64,000 bases of DNA, taken from Clostridia bacterium. Lineage in GTDB: Bacteria; Bacillota; Clostridia; Christensenellales; Borkfalkiaceae. Under the pieces are notes generated by a model. The model was not told where the DNA came from. It worked only from the letters and a program-made list of their open reading frames with translations, and did no database searches. This document shows positions 2,708 to 27,293 of this stretch, piece by piece (position 1 is the first letter of the stretch; each line of letters opens with the position of its first letter). Where the stretch lies: NCBI GenBank assembly GCA_017463325.1, contig JAFTPK010000011.1, positions 1 to 64,000 on the forward strand, read 5' to 3'. The translations under genes and the position numbers were made by a program.

Positions 2708-3535
2708 ATGATCAATGAATACGTTTTTGATAAATATGGGCTAAATCATCACGAAATCGACATTTCCATCAATTTGGTTTCGGTATATGACAGCTTGGCA
2801 AAGCCCTTTTTTCGGGGGATTTATCACGATTATAAAAAGGAACTGACGAGGCAAAACGATTTTATCGGGCTTGTGCATTGCGTCAAGGGAAAGGGCAAAA
2901 TTGCCACACGGGGTGAGGAATTTGTCTTGGAGGAAAATCAGGCTCTGTTTGTGCATTATCACAATTGCGTTTGTTTTAGCTCGGAGGGTGGCGATTGGGC
3001 TTTTTACACCGTTTGGTTTCGTGTAAACAATTTAAAGATTGAGTTGGATCGAGTGTATGACGTTGCGGTGACTGACGGCGAGAAAACGACGATAGAGAGA
3101 ATGATTTACCTTTTAAACACCAACGAGTATTTGAACTGTTGTAAGGCAAATACATTGGCACAGGGCTTAATTTTGGATATTCTTTCGGCGGTGGGAAAAA
3201 CGGAAAAGGAATCTGTGTACGCCGACAGCATGAAAAAAGTCGCGTTGTACGTCAGTCAGCACGTCAACGAAAATATTAGCGTTGCCGATTTGGCGGCTGT
3301 TTGTGCCTTTTCGAGAAACTACTTTTTCGTCATCTTTAAACAGTTCTTTAAAATGTCGCCCAAGGCGTATATTCAACAGGAAAAAATCAAAAAAGCCGCG
3401 TTTTTACTGTTGCATACCTCTACGCCGATCGCGAATATCGCCGACGAGCTATCGTTCTATTCTCCGGCGCATTTTACAAGCTGTTTTAAAAAGTGTTACG
3501 GGGTGACGCCGTCGGAATTTCGTCGGCAAAAATAA
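2708..3535 (+). CDS. AraC-family transcriptional regulator
   Basis: 275 residues. The N-terminal half (about 20-130) is a cupin-type sensor domain of the AraC-binding class, with HCVKGKGKI and a pair of beta-rich repeats. The C-terminal 100 residues carry two helix-turn-helix units: ISVADLAAVCAFSRNYFFVIFK and the conserved second helix region TPIANIADELSFYSPAHFTSCF followed by YGVTPSEFRR, the family signature. It probably binds a sugar and activates this carbohydrate locus. The ribosome site is AGAGGG, and the stop lies 10 bases before the next start. Its operator is not proven. The inverted repeat at 6313-6332 is one candidate. Confidence 0.9.
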   Translation: MINEYVFDKYGLNHHEIDISINLVSVYDSLAKPFFRGIYHDYKKELTRQNDFIGLVHCVKGKGKIATRGEEFVLEENQALFVHYHNCVCFSSEGGDWAFYTVWFRVNNLKIELDRVYDVAVTDGEKTTIERMIYLLNTNEYLNCCKANTLAQGLILDILSAVGKTEKESVYADSMKKVALYVSQHVNENISVADLAAVCAFSRNYFFVIFKQFFKMSPKAYIQQEKIKKAAFLLLHTSTPIANIADELSFYSPAHFTSCFKKCYGVTPSEFRRQK

Positions 3536-3545
3536 GGAGGCGTAT

Positions 3546-4406
3546 ATGAAAAAAATTGGCATACTCATTCGTTACGAAAATGAATTACAGGAAAAACAAA
3601 ATTTCCGCGAACGCTTTGAAGAGGCACAGGCAATGGGCATAGATTGTTGCCAGCTCTGTTTTCCCGAAGGGGTGGGATATACGGAGGAGGTCGCGGAAAA
3701 AATTAACGCGGCGGTGCTCTCCACGGGTTTTGAAATCTCTCTGCTTTGGGCGGGGTGGACGGGTGCAAACGACCCCGTTTGGAATTTCACCAAAGGACCT
3801 ACTCATTTGGGAATCGTGCCCATGGCTTACCGCGCACAACGTGTAAAGCAGCTCCAAGAGGCATCCGAATTTGCCTTGAAAATCGGCGTTAAGGATATTG
3901 CGACGCACGTTGGGTTTATTCCGGAGAATATGACTGATCCCGCATATGTGCCGCTCGTGGAAGAACTGAAAGAGCTTTGCGCGCTGTACGCCTCGCGTGA
4001 CCAGAATTTCCTGTTTGAAACGGGACAGGAAACCCCTGTGACGCTGCTTCGTACCATTGAAAAAATCGGCTTGAACAACGCGTTTATCAATTTTGACACG
4101 GCAAATTTGATTTTGTACGGAAAGGGGAATTCGGTGGACGCCGTGCGCGTGTTTGGAAAATATGTCCGTAATACGCATATTAAAGACGGAGTGTATCCCA
4201 CCGACGGAATGAGCCTCGGACGCGAGGTAAAAGTGGGTGAGGGGCTTGCGAATTTTCCCGCTTTGATCGCTATTCTGGACGAGGCAGGGTATGAAGGACC
4301 GTATACGATCGAGCGGGAAATTGCAGGCGAGGCACAGAAGAAAGATATTCGAGAAACGGTTGTGTATTTGCGCGAGCTGTTTAAAAAGATAGAGGAGAAA
4401 AAATGA
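3546..4406 (+). CDS. Sugar phosphate isomerase/epimerase family TIM barrel
   Basis: 286 residues of the xylose-isomerase-like (AP endonuclease family 2) fold. Metal-ligand positions typical of this family can be seen: FETGQETP (Glu after strand 5), NFDTANL (Asp), NTHIKDG (His) and a terminal TIEREIAGE (Glu). Relatives include sugar epimerases, dehydratases and lyases acting on 3-keto sugars, so the exact reaction cannot be read off. AGGAGG overlaps the end of the AraC gene, and the stop overlaps the next start (ATGA). The coupling to a second barrel of the same family and an oxidoreductase suggests that the three enzymes act on one substrate in sequence. Confidence 0.85.
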   Translation: MKKIGILIRYENELQEKQNFRERFEEAQAMGIDCCQLCFPEGVGYTEEVAEKINAAVLSTGFEISLLWAGWTGANDPVWNFTKGPTHLGIVPMAYRAQRVKQLQEASEFALKIGVKDIATHVGFIPENMTDPAYVPLVEELKELCALYASRDQNFLFETGQETPVTLLRTIEKIGLNNAFINFDTANLILYGKGNSVDAVRVFGKYVRNTHIKDGVYPTDGMSLGREVKVGEGLANFPALIAILDEAGYEGPYTIEREIAGEAQKKDIRETVVYLRELFKKIEEKK

Positions 4407-5257
4407 AATTTTCCGTATTCTTTTTATATCTTCTCCGTGTGGCAGAGCAAGAAAAAATAACGCTCGACGAGGCGTTGCACTATGCCGCGGAACTTGGCTA
4501 TACGGCGGTGGATATTGATAAGGACGAGTTAAAAAACTATCCCGACGCCTTACGCCTCATCCGTAAAAACGGGCTTACCGTTTGCAACATATACGGCGAA
4601 TACGATCTTGTAAACGGCAAGTGCTCCGACGCTTGCGAGTTGATCGACTATGCAAAGCAAAGCGGCGCGAAAGTGGCGATGCTGCTTGCGGGGAGTTTTG
4701 ACGCTGGGGAATTGACGGCAGAGCACATAGCGTCCGACGGGGCGATGAAACGGTTTTTGCGCGAAAATGAAAAGGCCGTCCGCGCGCTGCACGCGATCAA
4801 GAAAACGGCCGCTTACGCAAAAACGCAGGGGGTGGCATTGACGGTGGAATCGTTTGGGGGTAATCGCAGTCTTACCTCGTATATTAGCCAAATCGAGTGG
4901 TTGCTCGACGAGGTGGAGGAGCTTCACTTTACCTTTGATATCGGGAATTTCTATTTAAACGGACAGGACATTTTTAAGGCGTATGAAAAATTTTCGTCCA
5001 AAAGTGTGCACGTGCATTGTAAGGATTATTTGACCGAGCCTTCCGTAGGGAGTAAAGAATTTTCGTACGCGAAAATTTCCGTACCCGTCGGGCAAGGGAA
5101 AGCCCCGACGAAAGAGCTTGTAAAAAGGTTTTTAAAAGAGGGCTACGACGGGTATTTCACCGTCGAGTATTTGGGAATAGACGGCACGGCTAAGGTATTG
5201 AAAGAGTCTATGGAATATTTAAAAACGATCGGTAAGAAAAAGGGGGAAGAAGAATGA
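4403..5257 (+). CDS. Second sugar phosphate isomerase/epimerase family TIM barrel
   Basis: 284 residues, same xylose-isomerase-like fold as the preceding gene but only distantly similar. Family features are TVESFGGN (Glu), FTFDIGNFYLNG (Asp), VHVHCKDY (His and Asp) and YFTVEYLG near the end (Glu), consistent with a divalent-metal site. It overlaps the previous gene by 4 bases and the next gene by 4 bases, so translation of all three is probably coupled. Possible roles are isomerisation, epimerisation or elimination of an oxidised sugar. The sequence does not decide among them. Confidence 0.85.
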   Translation: MKFSVFFLYLLRVAEQEKITLDEALHYAAELGYTAVDIDKDELKNYPDALRLIRKNGLTVCNIYGEYDLVNGKCSDACELIDYAKQSGAKVAMLLAGSFDAGELTAEHIASDGAMKRFLRENEKAVRALHAIKKTAAYAKTQGVALTVESFGGNRSLTSYISQIEWLLDEVEELHFTFDIGNFYLNGQDIFKAYEKFSSKSVHVHCKDYLTEPSVGSKEFSYAKISVPVGQGKAPTKELVKRFLKEGYDGYFTVEYLGIDGTAKVLKESMEYLKTIGKKKGEEE

Positions 5258-6237
5258 AAAAAATAAAAATCGGGATTTTGGGTTGTAACTACATGGGCAA
5301 AATGCACGCCGATTGCTATGGAGCGATCGAGGGCGTGGAAATCGTTGCTGTGGCGGACTTAAACGAAGAAACGGCGAAAAATGTGGCGGGCAGGTATGGA
5401 TCGAAAGTGTATACGGACGCAAAAAAGCTGATAGAAGAAACCGAGCTTGACGCGGTGGATATTTGCTTGCCTACCTTTTTACATGCACAATACGCGACCT
5501 TGGCTATGGATCGGGGAATTCCATACCTCTTTATCGAAAAGCCTGTGGCACTCAATCAAGAGGAATGTGCGTTATTATTGCAAAAACAAAAGGAAACGGG
5601 CTGCCGCGTGCAGGTAGGGCAGGTGATCCGCTTTTGGGATGAGTACGTCTATTTAAAAAAGCTGTTCGACGAAAAAATGTACGGAGATGTGGTGAATGCA
5701 AGTTTTAAAAGACTCAGCCCTTCGCCGACGTGGAGCAGCAATAACTGGATGAAGAACACCAAGCTTTCGGGCGGAGCGATCGTCGATTTGCATATCCATG
5801 ATATCGACTATATGCTCTATTTATTCGGTGAACCAAAAAAGAGCAGCTATGTCAAGAATATCCGCGGCGAGCATAACTCGTATATTACCACCGTTTGCGA
5901 GTACGAGAATTTTGTCGTGAGCGTGGAGGGGACTTGGTTTTTGCCGCCTAGTTATCCGTTTAATATGTATTATCGCGTAGTGTTTGAAAAGGCGGTTGTG
6001 GAATACGACAAAGGAAAGGTGACCGTCTACGACGAGAATGGGAGCTTTACGCCGAGCATTGAAAAATCTGCCGCGGTTTTTGGGGATTTCGAGGGTGGAA
6101 ACATTTCCGAACAGAGCGGATATATTAACGAGCTTACCTATTTTATCGACTGTATCAAAATGGATAAAGAAATCGAAAGGGCGCGGCTTTGTGACGGCGC
6201 GCGTTCCTTGGCGTTTATTTTGGACGAACTGAAATAA
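5254..6237 (+). CDS. Gfo/Idh/MocA-family NAD(P)-dependent oxidoreductase
   Basis: 327 residues. The N-terminal Rossmann fold begins KIGILGCNYMGKMHADCY (a G-x-x-x-x-G-x-x-H variant of the dinucleotide motif), followed by VADLNEETA, where the acidic residue would bind the ribose. EKPVALN is the family's conserved EKP motif with the catalytic-area lysine. The C-terminal alpha/beta domain contains GGAIVDLHIHDIDYMLYLFG, matching the usual G-G-x-x-x-D-x-x-x-H-x-x-D substrate motif. Such enzymes oxidise or reduce sugar or inositol hydroxyls. It is the last gene of the promoter-550 operon. Confidence 0.92.
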   Translation: MKKIKIGILGCNYMGKMHADCYGAIEGVEIVAVADLNEETAKNVAGRYGSKVYTDAKKLIEETELDAVDICLPTFLHAQYATLAMDRGIPYLFIEKPVALNQEECALLLQKQKETGCRVQVGQVIRFWDEYVYLKKLFDEKMYGDVVNASFKRLSPSPTWSSNNWMKNTKLSGGAIVDLHIHDIDYMLYLFGEPKKSSYVKNIRGEHNSYITTVCEYENFVVSVEGTWFLPPSYPFNMYYRVVFEKAVVEYDKGKVTVYDENGSFTPSIEKSAAVFGDFEGGNISEQSGYINELTYFIDCIKMDKEIERARLCDGARSLAFILDELK

Positions 6238-12263: not shown

Positions 12264-14801
12264 ATGAAGAAAAAAATTCAAAAAACGATAGGCGGTATCC
12301 TTCTTTCGGCGCTGCTTTGTTCGGCTTGTGACAACGTGGCGTCTTCTGCCGCGGGAACGACTTACGCAAAGCTGAAAGACGTGGAGTTTTGGTCTACCTA
12401 TTCCACGGAAAAGGTGTTGCGGGAAAAGACCCTTTCCTATGAGGAGGTAAAAGGAGAGGCGGTCGTTTCCGTCACGGCCGTTCGCGGGGAGGAAGAGGCG
12501 ACGCAAATCATCATGACCTCGGGCGAGCTTCCCGTTAAGGAGTACGGCTTGACGGTAAGCGATTTGACAGACGGGGCGGGAAACCTCTTTTCCAAACAAA
12601 ATGTCAAGGTCTATCATCAAAAATACATCAGCGTCATTAAGGCGACGGAATATTATACGACAGCGGGATACTACCCCGACTGTCTTGTTCCTTATGAAAA
12701 GGTGAAAGCGGTGGGCGAAACGGGCTTTGCGGCGAATAACAATCAAGGGCTGTATATCAGCTTTGATATCCCGCTTGGTCAGCCTGCGGGCGTTTACGGT
12801 GGTTCTATTGCGGTCACGATTGGTGGAGAGGCGAAAAATATTCCCGTGACCTTGCGTGTTGCCGACGCTACTATCAGCGAGGAAACGCATACGCAAAGCG
12901 TGTTCTTGAACGAATGGTATTTTTACCGTGGCGAGCTAGACGAAACGGAAGAGATGTACGAGGCGTACAATCAAATGCTGTTTGAGTACAGGCTAGGCTG
13001 CAATAACGTGATTTTTGGCGAACGGGACGTGGAATATTACGCGGAAAAAGCTTGTGAGTATGCGCAAAATCCTAAGTGCTCCACTTATAATATCCCGTAT
13101 TTCTTTAAGGTTTGCAGCGAGAGTAATCCGTATATGCTTGGCGGTAAAGCGATCACCATTTCCAACGCGTACGACCCCGATTTGTTGCAGTTGTATTTGA
13201 AAACGATCGCGTACACGGGGTTGGAAAAAGGAGTAGATCCCTTTAAAAAAGCAGTCATTTACGGGTATGACGAGCCAGAACTTAACCTCGGCGTAGAAGG
13301 GGCGAAAAAGGCGATCCCGCAATGGGCGTATATCGTTAGACAATGTAAAAATATCGTCACGGAGGAACTACTTGCCGACGAAACTATTAAGGATCGGGAG
13401 CTGCTTGCAACCATTTTGGATAGCTTGGATAAAGTGCCGCATTTGTTGACGCAATGTACTTTCCTTAGCGATATTGAATACGATTTGGAGAGCATGGATA
13501 TTGTCTACACCCCCGAGTTCCAGTTTATTCAAACGCAGGAGGTGCAGGACATTTACCGTCTTGCGGCGGATAATCAGCTTTGGTGGTACGGTTGTAGCGC
13601 GCCCGATTATCCCTATCCCTCCTATCATATCGACGATACCCTGCTTTCGGCAAGAGTGCTCTCTTGGATGCAGGCTGATTATAACGTGCAGGGCAATTTG
13701 TACTGGGCGACGAATTCCTATTCCGCATCTGCGGAGGGGAAAACGGTGGAACAGCTCGACTATTACGATATGGGTATGCGTGGCTCGAATACCAACGGCG
13801 AGGGCTTTTTGCTCTATCCAGGGGCGAAGTACGGCGTGTACGGACCGTTGCCGTCCGTGCGGTTGGAGCAGATTCGCGATGGCTTGGAGGAGTATGAAAT
13901 GATTTACGCTCTTCGTGAAAAATACGCCGCCGTTTCCAAGGAAACGGGAATGCAGTTCAGCGAAGAGGGTGTTATGAAATATTTGTACGACCTTTTATAT
14001 ACGGGTACCAAAGTGGGCACGACGAGCGAAAATTTCCACACGCAACGCGCTATACTCATTTCCTTGTTAGAGCTTGCAAGCTCTGATGCGCGGGTGTGCG
14101 TTATGGATGTCAAAGAGGGACTTGGAAATTACTCGTTTAGCATGTACGCGGAAAAGGGGTACGTGTTGAAAGAGGGAGGCGTGGCTCTTACGGGCGGCGT
14201 GGCGAAAGGTAGCGGCTACGTATATACCTTTGAGTATTCCTTGAGCGAGGGGCGGTTGCTCGGCATTTCCGTGGACGTAAACGGAAAAGAATACGGTCTT
14301 ACCATGTCGTTTGGGAAAGGTGCCGTTGGATACGACGCGCAGTATATGTTTGAAAACGGAGTTGTGAAGAAACGGTATATTTCGGTGGAAACCGAGCTTG
14401 TAGACGCCAAAACGGTGAACGCACAAGCGGCGGAAGGCGCGAAATACGTACGACTGCACTTAGGCGCGGCGGACGCGGTGGCGCAGGACTTCCTGCTGAT
14501 TGACGATAATACAATCGGGAAACTTGGTAAAGAAAATAAGAAATATACGGTTCGTATCTACAATGCGTCTATGGAAAGTATTTCTGCAGAGCTGCTCATT
14601 AAATATGCGAGCGACAAGAAATACACCACATATACGACGCTTACCTTAAAACCCGGGGAGAATGTCTTGGAGGTGAATAACCTTGACGGCTTTAACTGGG
14701 CGAAACTTAAATCAATTCTGGAAATCCGCGTTATTGTCGGAGCAAAGGGCGACGCGGCGCGCGACTGTCTGTATTTGATGGATATGTCGGTGTATTCGTA
14801 A
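12264..14801 (+). CDS. DUF4091 (GH123-like) surface lipoprotein
   Basis: 845 residues. The signal ends LLCSAC (Cys22 as lipid site). The middle carries the DUF4091/GH123 layout: a beta-sandwich with NNQGLYISFDIPLGQPAGVYGG, then a TIM barrel (about 210-560) with YGYDEPE, a D-E pair of the type used by GH123 and GH20 for substrate-assisted catalysis. The family's closing signature follows: LLYPGAKYG then PSVRLEQIRDGLEEYEM. A beta-rich tail of about 240 residues may bind sugar. GH123 enzymes remove beta-GalNAc, but many DUF4091 relatives are uncharacterised. It is the only hydrolase of the locus with an export signal. Confidence 0.82.
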   Translation: MKKKIQKTIGGILLSALLCSACDNVASSAAGTTYAKLKDVEFWSTYSTEKVLREKTLSYEEVKGEAVVSVTAVRGEEEATQIIMTSGELPVKEYGLTVSDLTDGAGNLFSKQNVKVYHQKYISVIKATEYYTTAGYYPDCLVPYEKVKAVGETGFAANNNQGLYISFDIPLGQPAGVYGGSIAVTIGGEAKNIPVTLRVADATISEETHTQSVFLNEWYFYRGELDETEEMYEAYNQMLFEYRLGCNNVIFGERDVEYYAEKACEYAQNPKCSTYNIPYFFKVCSESNPYMLGGKAITISNAYDPDLLQLYLKTIAYTGLEKGVDPFKKAVIYGYDEPELNLGVEGAKKAIPQWAYIVRQCKNIVTEELLADETIKDRELLATILDSLDKVPHLLTQCTFLSDIEYDLESMDIVYTPEFQFIQTQEVQDIYRLAADNQLWWYGCSAPDYPYPSYHIDDTLLSARVLSWMQADYNVQGNLYWATNSYSASAEGKTVEQLDYYDMGMRGSNTNGEGFLLYPGAKYGVYGPLPSVRLEQIRDGLEEYEMIYALREKYAAVSKETGMQFSEEGVMKYLYDLLYTGTKVGTTSENFHTQRAILISLLELASSDARVCVMDVKEGLGNYSFSMYAEKGYVLKEGGVALTGGVAKGSGYVYTFEYSLSEGRLLGISVDVNGKEYGLTMSFGKGAVGYDAQYMFENGVVKKRYISVETELVDAKTVNAQAAEGAKYVRLHLGAADAVAQDFLLIDDNTIGKLGKENKKYTVRIYNASMESISAELLIKYASDKKYTTYTTLTLKPGENVLEVNNLDGFNWAKLKSILEIRVIVGAKGDAARDCLYLMDMSVYS

Positions 14802-17871: not shown

Positions 17872-17929
17872 AACGTGGCGGGCCTGCGTATCAAAATAAA
17901 AAAATAATGAAAAAACAGGAGGTTTTTTT

Positions 17930-18061
17930 ATGAAAAAAGAGTATCTGGAACCGTTGTTGCGCATTTGCGTAATGACAAACGAAGTGGTTCGTACGTCGGG
18001 GGAATCGATTTACGACACGGAGAACGGCGACCATCTGCAAGGATGGGGCGAGAACTGGTAA
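17930..18061 (+). CDS. 43-residue small protein with TSGESIYDTENGDH motif
   Basis: ATG at 17930 is preceded by a perfect AGGAGG seven bases upstream, and the frame ends TAA at 18059-18061, 14 bases before the next start. The peptide begins MKKEYLEPLLRICVM, continues NEVVRTSGESIYDTENG, and ends GWGENW. It has no signal peptide or membrane segment. From memory, short peptides of the plan MKK-Y-(x)-P-...-DV-(x)-TS-(G) followed by an acidic, Gly-rich tail are common and unexplained in gut Clostridia. This one appears to fit. Function is unknown. Its position directly before a secreted repeat protein suggests co-expression. Confidence 0.65.
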   Translation: MKKEYLEPLLRICVMTNEVVRTSGESIYDTENGDHLQGWGENW

Positions 18062-18075
18062 GGAGGGAAAACGTT

Positions 18076-20052
18076 ATGAAGAAAAGAAATCTGATCGCAG
18101 TACTTGCAACTTGTATGGTTTCCTGCGCTTGCCTTTCCGTAATTGCGCTTCCTACGCAGGCAGAGCTTGCTGAAAACTCGTTGAACGTTTCCACTATTGC
18201 TATGGCGCCCGGCGCAAGCGTGCGTGTAAACGCTGCAGGCGAGCATGCGGACAAGAAAGGGATCCGTTTCACGATGTATGTCAATCAGGACTATTACGAA
18301 AGCTTTACCGCTCCCGTAGTAGGTGTGTACGTACTTCCCGCGTCGCTTGTCGAGGCGGAGGATATGCTCTCGGAAACGACCGTTCCCGCAGCTGCAAATC
18401 ATTACTACACGGCGACGGTGGAAGAGCTTGCGGGCGACGACAAAGCGACGGTGGAGGACACCTATTCCTTTAACGCTGTCGTTTACGGGATTCCTGAAAC
18501 GGCGTACAATGTACAGATCATTGCCAACGGGTATATTGCCGAGGGGGAAGAAGGCGAAAAGACGTTCGCGGCGAACCCCGTTTCCCGTTCGGTGGCACAG
18601 GTGGCAAGCCTTGCGCTTGCAGACGGCGATACGAGAACGGGCTTGAACGATTACGTGAACGGCGTTGTAACGGAGAGCAATTTCTTGTTGGAGGAAGTTT
18701 CTACTCATAAGTATTCGGCGGAAAAGCCTGCTTTGAATAAAACGTTGCCTGAGAATTTGACGGCGATTTGGTCGAGCAGTAACGAGGCTGTTGCGACGGT
18801 AGATAAGGACGGCAACATCACTTGGGGTGAAACGCTTGGTACGACTACGATTACGGCGAAGCTTGGCACCGTTACCAAAACAGCAACGGCAACCTTGGCA
18901 GAACCGACGGTGGTGACGATTGATGACACGACCTCTTCGAGATTTACCCTCAACGGTGATAAGAGCGCGTCCAAAATGGGCGTAGTGAACGCGACTGACG
19001 TAGACGCAACGAGCGAATACAAGGGTATGGCGCAAAAATTCAAGAGCTGGAATTGCGCTACCTCGGGCGCGGGCTGGTCGATCAGCAATCAGTTCACGGC
19101 AGAGGAACTGACGGCGATCAAAAAGGATTATAATTTAGTTTCCATGTGGTTTGCAATCGACCTCACGGAAAAAACGACGGGTACGGCGGCAACCTCGTAT
19201 TTGACGGGAAAGGCAAGTAGTGGCGGTTATGCAAGCTTTGAAGATAACTTTTTGAGCTATGCAGGCGCAAGCAAACGCGTTTATTCGACGGACGAGGCAA
19301 ACGGCAAGTGGCAAAAGCTTACCATTTCCATTGAAGAATATATCGCGCTTGTTTCCGCGGATACGGGCGAAGTAGCGGTAGATAATAAAGTTTTGTTGCT
19401 TGGTATGACGTTAGAGGGGACGACGTTACAGGATAGCTCGTTTATCTACGTTGGCGATATCATCTTTGAATATGAGACGCCGACGGTGGTGGCGATTAGT
19501 TCTGCGACCTCTTCGAGATTTACGCTCAACGGTGACGCAAGCGCGTCTAAAATGGGCGTAGTGAACGCGACTGATGTAGACGCGACGAGCGAATACAAGG
19601 GCATGGCGCAAAAATTCAAGAGTTGGAATTGCGCTACCTCGGGCGCGGGCTGGTCGATCAGCAATCAGTTCACCGCAGAAGAATTGAACGCAATCAAAGA
19701 AAAGTACAACAGCGTTTCCATGTGGTTTGCATTCGATTTAACGGAGAAAACGGCGGGTACGGCGGCAACCTCGTATTTGACGGGGAAAGGTAGTGGCGGC
19801 TACGCAAACTTCAAGGATAACTTTTTGAGCTATGCGGGCGCAAGTAAACGCGTTTATTCGACGGACGAGGCAAACGGTAAGTGGCAAAAGCTTACCATTT
19901 CCATTGACGAATATATTGCACTTGCCTCCGCAAGTACGGGCGAAGTTGCCGTTGGAAACAAGGTATTATTGCTCGGTATGACGTTAGAGGGAACGACGTT
20001 GCAGGATAGTTCGTTTATCTATATCGGCGATATTTTCTTCGAGAACGTATAA
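18076..20052 (+). CDS. Secreted protein with Big_2-like domain and two near-identical binding-like modules
   Basis: 658 residues from the ATG at 18076, which has AGGAGG 9 bases upstream. An in-frame start at 17965 would overlap the small gene and lacks a site. The signal ends either as a lipoprotein (MVSC, Cys17) or by normal cleavage after ALPTQA. An N-terminal domain (about 35-205) includes KKGIRFTMYV and YSFNAVVYGIPETAYN. A Big_2-like Ig domain follows (about 215-277) with AIWSSSNEAVATVDKDG. Two modules of about 190 residues are then almost identical in protein and DNA (18907-19482 and 19483-20040). They share WQKLTISI(E/D)EY and IY(V/I)GDI(I/F)FE with the lipoprotein at 16120. Binding at the surface is inferred. 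Confidence 0.8.
   Translation: MKKRNLIAVLATCMVSCACLSVIALPTQAELAENSLNVSTIAMAPGASVRVNAAGEHADKKGIRFTMYVNQDYYESFTAPVVGVYVLPASLVEAEDMLSETTVPAAANHYYTATVEELAGDDKATVEDTYSFNAVVYGIPETAYNVQIIANGYIAEGEEGEKTFAANPVSRSVAQVASLALADGDTRTGLNDYVNGVVTESNFLLEEVSTHKYSAEKPALNKTLPENLTAIWSSSNEAVATVDKDGNITWGETLGTTTITAKLGTVTKTATATLAEPTVVTIDDTTSSRFTLNGDKSASKMGVVNATDVDATSEYKGMAQKFKSWNCATSGAGWSISNQFTAEELTAIKKDYNLVSMWFAIDLTEKTTGTAATSYLTGKASSGGYASFEDNFLSYAGASKRVYSTDEANGKWQKLTISIEEYIALVSADTGEVAVDNKVLLLGMTLEGTTLQDSSFIYVGDIIFEYETPTVVAISSATSSRFTLNGDASASKMGVVNATDVDATSEYKGMAQKFKSWNCATSGAGWSISNQFTAEELNAIKEKYNSVSMWFAFDLTEKTAGTAATSYLTGKGSGGYANFKDNFLSYAGASKRVYSTDEANGKWQKLTISIDEYIALASASTGEVAVGNKVLLLGMTLEGTTLQDSSFIYIGDIFFENV
18907..20040 (+). 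repeat. Tandem duplication of a 576-base module
   Basis: Unit 1 is 18907-19482 and unit 2 is 19483-20040, in frame (192 codons). Long stretches are identical, for example around AATGGGCGTAGTGAACGCGA and the segments encoding AGASKRVYSTDEANGKWQ. Unit 2 lacks one codon in the Gly/Ser stretch (KASSGG versus KGSGG). This looks like a recent duplication. Confidence 0.9.
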
Positions 20053-20167: not shown

Positions 20168-21733
20168 ATGAAACGATACGGCGTAATGCTTGACTGTTCG
20201 CGAAACGCGGTAATGAAAGTGAGCGAAGTCAAACGCTTTATGGACTGTATGAAAAAAATGGGGTATAACGCCCTTGAATTATACACGGAGGACACCTACG
20301 AGTTAGACGGTGAGCCTTATTTTGGGTATATGCGCGGGAGATATACGGGTGCGGAAATTCGCGAGATGGACGCTTACGCTAAGGCGCACGGCATTGAACT
20401 CATTCCCTGTATTCAAACCTTGGCGCATTTTACGGCGATCGTTCGCCATAGCGTGTATCGCGATATCGTAGATGTCAATGATATTTTGGTCGTTGACGAG
20501 CCGAAAACGTACGCGTTGATTGAGAAAATGTTCGCTTCGCTTGCCGAGAATTTTTCTTCTAGACAGGTTAATATCGGCATGGATGAGGCGCACCTCATGG
20601 GGAGAGGAAAATTTTTAGATAAATTTGGTTATCAGGATCGCTTTGACGTATTACTTCGTCATTTAAGAAAGGTTGTTTCGATCGCCGAAAAATACGGATT
20701 TCAAGTACATATGTGGAGCGATATGTTTTTCCGTTTGGCAAACCACGGCGACGCCTATGGGAAAAACGTCGTGATCCCCGCCGAGATCGTTTCCAAGATC
20801 CCGCAAGGAGTGAGCATGGCTTACTGGGATTATTATCACTACAAACAATCAGATTACGACGAGATGTTCCGCGCTTACGCGAGAATGGGCTGTCCCATTT
20901 GGTTTTTCGGGTCGGTGTGGACATGCTGCGGTTTCGTACCCCTTTGGGATAAGGTGTTACAGACCATGAAGCCCGCCATGAAAAGCGCGCGAGAGCACGG
21001 AATAGAGGATATCTTTTTGTGTGCGTGGGGGGACGGTGGAAAAGAGTGCTCGTATTTTGCCGCGTTGCCGTTGCTGTACGCCGCAAAGCAGTACGCAGAC
21101 GGGAATTTCGACGAGGAGAAGATTGCGGCGTCGTTCAAAGAAACGTTTGGGCTTTGTATGACGGATTTCGAGCTGCTTTCCAAAATCAACGGCGTGAAAA
21201 GTCGACGGGAATATTTTTCCTCCACCCATTTATACAACGATCCCTTACTGGGTATTAACGACTGTTTTGTAAAGGAAAACGGCGCTGTGCCTTACGCTGA
21301 GTATACCGCAAAACTGCACGAGGCAAAAGCCCGCGCGGGGGAATTTGCGTATGTGTTCGATTGCGCTGAAAAATTGAGCGCCGTTTTAGAGCTAAAATAC
21401 GATTTTGGCGTACGTTTACGCGAGGGGTATCATGCGAAAAGCGAGGAGGTACTTCGCACATGTGCAAAAGAATGTCAAGAAATTGTCTTACGTACGGAGG
21501 ATTTTTACGAGAGTTTGAAAACGCTTTGGCATATCGAAAACAAGCCGTTTGGATTTGAGGTGCAAACGCTCCGTATCGGCGCGGTATTGCAGAGAATGAA
21601 AGACTGTAAAATACGTATTGAGGAGTATTTGGAGGGCAGGGCGGCGTCCATTCCCGAATTAGAGGAGGAGCCTTTGCCGCACCCCGAATACGACGCGCAG
21701 TATTTGACGCTGTTCAGCGCGGGAAAGGTGTAA
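20168..21733 (+). CDS. GH20-like (beta-N-acetylhexosaminidase-type) glycoside hydrolase
   Basis: 521 residues, no signal peptide. The TIM barrel starts at the N-terminus (MKRYGVMLDCSRN) without the usual extra N-terminal domain. After strand 4 comes NIGMDEAHLMGRG with the adjacent Asp139-Glu140 pair that GH20 enzymes use for substrate-assisted catalysis. HMWSDMFF and SMAYWDYYHY are later barrel strands with the typical Trp-Asp motif. A helical C-terminal domain of about 150 residues follows. Related short GH20-like proteins act on N-acetylated or other hexosides, and the exact substrate is not visible. AGAGGAG precedes the start. It probably acts on imported fragments. Confidence 0.8.
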   Translation: MKRYGVMLDCSRNAVMKVSEVKRFMDCMKKMGYNALELYTEDTYELDGEPYFGYMRGRYTGAEIREMDAYAKAHGIELIPCIQTLAHFTAIVRHSVYRDIVDVNDILVVDEPKTYALIEKMFASLAENFSSRQVNIGMDEAHLMGRGKFLDKFGYQDRFDVLLRHLRKVVSIAEKYGFQVHMWSDMFFRLANHGDAYGKNVVIPAEIVSKIPQGVSMAYWDYYHYKQSDYDEMFRAYARMGCPIWFFGSVWTCCGFVPLWDKVLQTMKPAMKSAREHGIEDIFLCAWGDGGKECSYFAALPLLYAAKQYADGNFDEEKIAASFKETFGLCMTDFELLSKINGVKSRREYFSSTHLYNDPLLGINDCFVKENGAVPYAEYTAKLHEAKARAGEFAYVFDCAEKLSAVLELKYDFGVRLREGYHAKSEEVLRTCAKECQEIVLRTEDFYESLKTLWHIENKPFGFEVQTLRIGAVLQRMKDCKIRIEEYLEGRAASIPELEEEPLPHPEYDAQYLTLFSAGKV

Positions 21734-27068: not shown

Positions 27069-27293
27069 ATGACTTGGTTTAATAAGCAAAGCCGTCTTGT
27101 GCAGATCATTCTTTTGCTCATTCCCGGCATCAACTGGATCACCGAGATCGTTGTAAGATGGTCGACTTTCGCAAAGAAAGGCGGGCTTCTCCGTTTGATC
27201 ATCTGTATTCTCGTAACGATCCCCAGCGGTATCGTATTCGGGTGGATCGACTTGGTCTGGGTATTGCTTTTCAAAAAGCTTTGCCTGCAATAA
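27069..27293 (+). CDS. Small membrane protein of unknown function
   Basis: 74 residues with two hydrophobic segments (about 9-31 and 41-70) separated by a basic stretch RWSTFAKKGG. Its own promoter, an AGGAGG site 8 bases upstream and a terminator right after make a complete one-gene unit, which supports a real gene. The plan of a short two-helix protein resembles YqaE/Pmp3-type stress proteins in size only. The characteristic motifs of that family are not clearly present. Function unknown. Confidence 0.8.
   Translation: MTWFNKQSRLVQIILLLIPGINWITEIVVRWSTFAKKGGLLRLIICILVTIPSGIVFGWIDLVWVLLFKKLCLQ

Follow-up and report, generated by a model that had tools for sequence, protein, structure and literature searches.

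The 43-codon open reading frame (ORF) studied here lies in a 64,000-nucleotide stretch of clostridial DNA, hereafter called the window, and very probably encodes an LPP-type RiPP precursor (LPP, Linear Polyphosphorylated Peptide), which is one of approximately 11 dispersed paralogues served by a single, unlinked cassette. A sequence-only reading of the window had likened the ORF to an unexplained class of short clostridial peptides; this class can be assigned to the LPP-type precursors because it is linked to, and co-occurs with, a cassette consisting of an HprK-like kinase, an RRE protein, an SpI-like protease and an ABC exporter. The evidence is computational and covers the coding status of the ORF, its family, the cassette, co-occurrence, linkage in other genomes, the peptide-binding residues of the RRE and the register between a conserved Tyr and a conserved Ser. 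Unannotated short ORFs of gut Clostridia would thereby become a defined kind of molecule with testable chemistry, and a strong functional clue would be gained for LPPs, to which no role is assigned in the available text of their description (Popov et al. 2026, Nat Commun 17:6633, PMC13381572): in these bacteria, the precursor genes occur in company with large secreted proteins and operons for glycan breakdown. Since these genes are remote from the enzymes by which they can be recognized, the family readily escapes notice, and one cassette would serve up to 18 precursors in one genome.

The peptide gene and its operon

The ORF starts with an ATG at position 17930 and ends with a TAA at 18059-18061, and the next ATG follows at 18076, 14 nt past the stop codon (Table 1). 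Direct reading confirmed this layout, including the AGGAGG 7 nt upstream, as it had been described from the sequence alone. The contact between the second Shine-Dalgarno (SD) sequence and the stop codon recurs at two related loci, L080 and L082, and translational coupling of the peptide with the downstream gene is likely. Strong SD sequences are also found upstream of most homologues. In the 64-kb window, the peptide ORF is the only ATG ORF of 30 to 75 codons with a full AGGAGG that is free of annotated genes; however, the SD sequence by itself is not decisive, because mononucleotide shuffles of the window length are expected to yield approximately 1.6 comparable ORFs. This expectation would also fit an untranslated chance ORF, an explanation whose probability is negligible in view of the family conservation, the pN/pS ratio and the synteny described below, which decide that the ORF is a real gene. 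The peptide had been called unannotatable, and indeed no Pfam or NCBIfam model recognizes it; a PDB search with the peptide profile gave a viral protein as its sole match, which arose by chance. A 74-amino-acid hydrophobic small ORF, also with a full AGGAGG, is present on the forward strand at 27069-27293 of the window and is apparently a separate gene for a small membrane protein.

Table 1. Coordinates of the peptide gene, its operon in the window and the cassette of the same genome.
Feature	Location	Strand	Basis or remark
Peptide gene, probable LPP-type precursor, 43 aa and stop, MKKEYLEPLLRICVMTNEVVRTSGESIYDTENGDHLQGWGENW	17930..18061	+	direct reading, multi-copy family, selection, synteny
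SD AGGAGG of the peptide gene	17917..17922	+	direct reading; 7-nt T spacer before ATG
Predicted leader, residues 1-20	17930..17989	+	inferred from the Y-to-S register of LppA (PMC13381572)
Predicted core, residues 21-43, RTSGESIYDTENGDHLQGWGENW	17990..18058	+	register versus LppA
SD GGAGGG of the next gene	18062..18067	+	direct reading; touches the peptide stop codon
Secreted partner, 658 aa	18076..20052	+	signal peptide, Big_2, conserved N-terminal region (GASVRL..GIRF) covered by no model
Upstream secreted protein, 583 aa	16120..17871	+	58 nt ahead of the peptide; syntenic in L080
Secreted/lipoprotein-like protein, 430 aa	14812..16104	+	syntenic in L080 and L081
GH123 glycoside hydrolase	12264..14801	+	present also in peptide loci L081 and L087
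GH20	20168-21733		downstream of the 658-aa partner
HprK-like kinase	L183, contig C5, 10076-10795	-	own genome
PqqD/RRE	L183, contig C5, 9799-10062	-	own genome
SpI-like protease	L183, contig C5, 9304-9786	-	own genome
ABC exporter	L183, contig C5, 7631-9307	-	own genome

The peptide gene is embedded in what its predicted gene content identifies as an N-acetylhexosamine-type glycan operon, which also encodes an ABC sugar transporter upstream of the peptide. The Big_2 domain of the 658-aa partner covers residues 231-273 (7e-05), and the 430-aa protein has weak similarity to an SGBP_B glycan-binding domain (E = 9e-4, below the cut-off).

A multi-copy peptide family beside secreted proteins

A search of relatives with the single sequence returned weak matches, which were short ORFs with the same motif, located mostly beside genes for secreted proteins. 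Since these matches were weak, a profile (A1) was built from 12 divergent homologues of the same genus. It detects the peptide in 47 of 57 genus genomes, with up to 18 copies per genome, and at a loose cut-off profile matches are found in 54 of 101 genomes sampled across the family; all gene-content statistics are based on HMM searches of MAGs. Approximately 100 copies were taken together with their surroundings, giving 101 members, 99 of which are distinct; the source genome carries about 11 dispersed copies. Across an alignment of 62 members, M1 never varies, and conservation reaches at least 90% for Y5 and S23. The family Tyr is present in 92 of 97 peptides, and the same number has a Ser at +17 to +19 from it (46 at +18, 58 at +19), while a Pro at +3 is found in 53 of the 97, about half lacking the Pro of YxxP. 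The tails vary, contain many D, G, E, N, F and W residues but hardly any Cys, and are acidic, with a mean net charge of -4.4. The search motif suggested earlier, Y-x-P ... TSG ... D-x-x-x-G, thus has to be replaced by Y-x-x-P and a Ser 18 or 19 residues past the Tyr, followed by a variable tail.

The pooled pN/pS of 15 close peptide pairs is 0.29, with synonymous sites near saturation, and the amino acid sequence of the peptide is therefore under selection. Locus L080 of genome G013 is syntenic with the window operon and contains both secreted neighbours, the peptide and then a 629-aa partner; the counterpart of the 430-aa protein is 43% identical, and the 629-aa partner is 32% identical across its length. 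Two GH123-bearing operons (L081 and L087) likewise carry a family peptide. Conservation of the frame in relatives had been named as the check for a true small gene: the syntenic loci retain the reading frame, which, together with the 47 genomes and the pN/pS, supports the gene. Loci L096 (G019) and L097 (G061) have an identical peptide, identical neighbour distances and the same downstream 1612-aa gene, and either stem from very close species or reflect a contamination common to both MAGs.

A signal-peptide gene starting at most 40 nt downstream, or an ORF of at least 300 amino acids ending at most 40 nt upstream, accompanies 84 of the 101 copies, and the gaps to these neighbours cluster at 12-16 nt or are start-stop overlaps. 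The next gene after the peptide has a signal peptide, as called by a crude in-house rule, for 58 of 98 peptides, whereas among the other genes in these loci this holds for 47 of 241 (P = 3e-12), a background which is itself rich in secreted proteins; many upstream neighbours extend beyond the fetched stretch, with their N-termini outside it. The peptides had been expected upstream of secreted proteins, which holds for most copies, whereas roughly a quarter are located directly downstream of a large ORF.

This arrangement bears on the question whether the ORF merely serves as an upstream coupling ORF, i.e. a bicistronic design or attenuator which opens the ribosome-binding site of the secreted gene and whose amino acids matter little. 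The strong SD sequence, the short gap, the second SD sequence that overlaps or touches the stop codon, and the prevalence of downstream gaps of 12-16 nt or start-stop overlaps would all suit such a function. It is nevertheless very unlikely, since the residues are under strong purifying selection, some peptides lie inside cassette operons and, at L072 and L077, the peptide is found only downstream of a secreted gene, without a co-directional gene after it. Because several copies sit only 3' of a secreted gene, the peptide is more than a leader ORF, and a role as attenuator or uORF was rejected as the main function on the grounds of selection and downstream placement; coupling may be a secondary effect of the ORF.

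The secreted partners have little in common. Many of those directly 3' of the peptide share an N-terminal GASVRL..GIRF region and Big_2 domains, and other partners have no Pfam match. The suggested pattern of short clostridial peptides near secreted, often Big_2-type proteins thus recurs across the copies. The GASVRL..GIRF region, for which no Pfam model exists, spans 18076-18900 in the window and is found in the relatives L073, L076, L078, L080 and L083; an AF2 prediction of the first 290 residues of the partner, based on seven sequences, reached a pLDDT of 58. At another locus of the same genome (L346, contig C16, 804-5630), a family peptide (5499-5630) with its secreted partner of 1293 aa directly follows two proteins whose signal sequences are TasA/CalY-like (..TTFAWFTD.. 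and ..TTYAWFTG..).

The processing cassette and its association with the peptide

The K-x-Y-x-x-P motif raised the suspicion of an RRE-bound leader. One small protein per genome matches PF05402 (PqqD) in 32 of the 57 genomes of the genus, including 11 of the best 12, and its gene is part of a conserved operon that encodes an HprK-like kinase, the PqqD/RRE protein, an SpI-like protease and an ABC exporter. In the source genome, this operon is located on contig C5 and the window peptide on contig C8, and the two are unlinked. The RRE protein consists of 87 amino acids (PF05402, 2e-17); its only sequence match in the PDB is 9x8z_B, which is LppB. The Tyr/Pro-binding residues N33 and D70 of LppB correspond to N35 and D72, and among the 14 RRE proteins of set A3 the Asn is present in all and the Asp in most. 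The kinase was assigned by its fold because a PDB sequence search returned nothing, and Pfam gave no match either: the AF2 model has a pLDDT of 95, its Foldseek matches are HPr kinase/phosphorylase (HprK/P) and PEPCK, and an SGTGKSTH-like P-loop and a GTPWxGK region show little or no variation. The best NCBIfam match of the protease, TIGR02228 (7e-6), is below the cut-off, and its PDB sequence matches are due to chance; S25 and H63 have an SpI-like spacing of 38 residues (39 in LppS), with a tentative placement of the catalytic Asp. The exporter has 558 amino acids and matches MsbA_lipidA best (1e-74, below the cut-off).

A protein with an NTP_transf_5 domain (PF14907) is encoded once in the source genome, away from the cassette on contig C6 (1.3e-46), and is also present in all but one of the best 12 genomes. 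Its gene adjoins the cassette in G071, G060 and G072, is unlinked in most genomes, and lies within capsule/exopolysaccharide-like loci in G001 and G013. In two genomes of genus g18 (G127, locus L207, and G117, locus L208), the RRE gene follows a dehydrogenase-like gene, with neither kinase nor protease beside it, and these genomes have 10-14 precursor copies. A SPASM/radical-SAM maturase was rejected as the enzyme responsible for the modification, since nearly all genomes encode a SPASM protein regardless of the peptide, and do so outside the cassette.

In the family sample of 101 genomes, the peptide (profile A2, E <= 0.1) is found in 42 of the 45 genomes that encode a discrete RRE (E <= 1e-9), compared to 6 of 56 without (Fisher 5e-18, a value inflated by kinship among the genomes). 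Presence and absence covary within single genera as well: in g27, both are present in G082 and both absent from G099. G011, a 94% complete genome of the same genus as the window, lacks the peptide, the RRE and NTP_transf_5, as if the system had been lost at once. Exceptions are G043, G137 and G158, which have an RRE without a detectable peptide, and up to six genomes, some of them fragmented MAGs, with a peptide and no RRE.

Direct linkage is found in other genomes. The peptide lies directly ahead of the RRE gene in G082, and peptide, kinase, RRE and protease genes form one run in G085 and G101; in G085, a 1927-aa secreted protein is encoded 14 nt upstream of the peptide. The best out-of-family match among 299 phylum genomes, in G433 from another family, shares one operon with the kinase, RRE and protease genes of that genome, while two further matches are weaker and inside longer frames. 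A scan of named genomes with the RRE alignment retrieved MAGs of Clostridia from ruminant, deer, goat and chicken hindgut as well as Lachnospira, Terrisporobacter and Saccharofermentans; near these RRE genes, 17 ORFs with Y/F/W-x-x-P are on the same strand and 5 on the opposite strand, a suggestive count that includes chance ORFs. Relatives of Lachnospira (L310, L334 and L326) encode two different YxxP peptides in tandem (4316-4658 in L310), with a large secreted protein on one side and kinase, RRE and protease genes on the other. In a Saccharofermentans MAG (L289), the leader MKYVKPEAEIINIENEDIVVAS equals the family leader and is followed by a long core rich in Cys; beside this precursor lie genes for a radical SAM/SPASM enzyme, for an HprK-like fragment and for a PqqD protein (features at 3170-3442, 3559-4836 and 5246-6004). 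Because L289 joins the same leader to a Cys-rich core, the N-terminus can be regarded as the leader and the tail as the core, and the predicted leader family is common to phospho-type and radical-SAM-type systems. Terrisporobacter mayombei DSM 6539, a cultured strain, encodes a PqqD protein, a radical SAM enzyme, a 110-aa YxxP precursor, an HprK-like kinase, an SpI-like protease and an ABC exporter in consecutive genes (L333, 6001-10978).

These data also address a role of the peptide as an unmodified small partner, that is, a cytosolic chaperone or regulator which binds the neighbouring secreted protein. The tight pairing in 84 of 101 copies and the location of most copies away from any modifying enzyme would be in line with this idea. 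It is, however, unlikely: the presence of the peptide tracks that of the RRE gene, three lineages have copies within a kinase-RRE-protease operon, the same leader precedes a Cys-rich core at a locus with a radical SAM gene, and Tyr and Ser are as far apart as in LppA.

Proposed pathway and comparison with known RiPP systems

According to the available text of the LPP description (PMC13381572), LPP precursors are 35-200 amino acids long, with a conserved N-terminus including YxxP and a variable C-terminus, and one to three of them are encoded within each published lpp cluster. The leader consensus of LppA is YxxPxVLxHQxIxFETxxS. LppK, an HprK, adds several phosphates to core Ser3 and does not accept an S3T exchange; in LppB, the RRE, D70 bonds Tyr-16 and N33 holds the backbone at Pro-13; LppS, an SpI-like (archaeal-type signal-peptidase-like) Ser/His enzyme, cuts after T-1 and requires LppB; LppD is an MsbA-like exporter and LppN an NTP_transf_5 protein (PMC13381572).

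The window peptide agrees with this scheme in its length of 43 amino acids, its conserved N-terminus and its variable tail. Y5 and P8 correspond to Y-16 and P-13 of LppA, i.e. to the YxxP motif bound by the RRE, and the 18 residues from Y5 to S23 (codon 17996-17998) equal the distance from Tyr-16 to Ser3; in the family, this spacing is 18 or 19, compared to 18 in LppA. The inner LPP consensus HQxIxFET, which belongs to the published logo and is not a stated requirement (PMC13381572), is missing in the window family: the window peptide has LLRICVMTNEVV between P8 and the core, and only a hydrophobic residue at -11 matches the logo. The machinery is likewise LPP-like, with a discrete RRE of the N33/D70 type, an HprK-like kinase, a Ser/His SpI-like peptidase, an MsbA-like exporter and an NTP_transf_5 protein, and, as in the published clusters, no macrolactam cyclase was seen at the cassette loci.

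By homology to the published system, the RRE would capture the leader through Y5-x-x-P8, the kinase would add one or more phosphates to S23, and the RRE would present the peptide to the protease, which would cut near V20|R21; the ABC protein would then export an acidic, aromatic core of approximately 23 residues. Gene order suggests that each precursor is co-expressed with the adjacent secreted protein via translational coupling, and the matured phosphopeptide would therefore probably act outside the cell, in concert with this protein or on a surface or glycan common to both. It is tempting to speculate, although we consider it doubtful, that the pathway is a genome-wide outfitting of secreted proteins, in which every large secreted or surface protein would come with a cognate precursor and a single cassette would convert all of these into exported polyphosphorylated, perhaps glycan-linked peptides which, at the cell surface, bind, anchor or mark the partner.

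Paeninodin-like lasso peptide systems also possess a discrete RRE (B1), an HprK-like kinase, an NTP transferase and leader recognition via [Y/W]xxP. A lasso precursor with a macrolactam-cyclised tail could thus be considered: among NCBIfam models, lasso_PqqD_Bac matches the RRE best, albeit below the cut-off, and an 8-residue ring could be closed between G24 and E31. However, the window leader has a Tyr instead of the Trp of paeninodin-like leaders, and the Asn and Asp of the RRE are replaced by Gly and Gln in paeninodin RREs. The lasso B2 peptidase (PF13471) is found above the cut-off in none of the 57 genus genomes and has no match in the source genome, an Asn-synthetase-like macrolactam cyclase was not seen around the cassettes of the genus, and the paralogues conserve neither core position 1 nor a ring acceptor residue. 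With an SpI-like protease in the place of B2, a lasso identity was rejected as extremely improbable.

The LPP-type cassette also resembles PqqD/radical-SAM RiPP systems: an RRE, an HprK-like kinase and a YxxP leader recur in L333 and L289, the SpI-like protease and ABC exporter recur in L333, and the family leader recurs in L289. These systems differ in their radical SAM enzyme and Cys-containing precursors, whereas the cassette of the window family is without a radical SAM gene. Many unlinked precursor genes that are served in trans by one maturation machinery are also found in prochlorosin-type systems, whose chemistry differs, with a lanthipeptide synthetase and Cys-containing cores. To our knowledge, prochlorosin-type precursors are not paired with secreted proteins.

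The organization in the window lineage differs from that of published LPPs in several respects. Published LPPs come from Bacilli, whereas the hosts here are clostridial gut MAGs. The precursor is part of the cluster in LPP systems, and also in G082, G085, G101 and G433, but not in the source genome; in the window lineage, 1-18 precursors are scattered, mostly beside large secreted proteins, and one unlinked cassette is present, with the NTP transferase gene likewise unlinked in most genomes, including the source genome. The main text of PMC13381572, as far as available, makes no mention of Clostridia, secreted proteins, surface or orphan precursors, and a literature search with most subscription journals and all preprints outside its scope found no other publication on dispersed LPP-type precursors. 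Taken together, the comparison suggests that what is probably new is an LPP-type system in which the precursors are dispersed genome-wide, amplified and paired with secreted proteins, and in which the cassette acts in trans.
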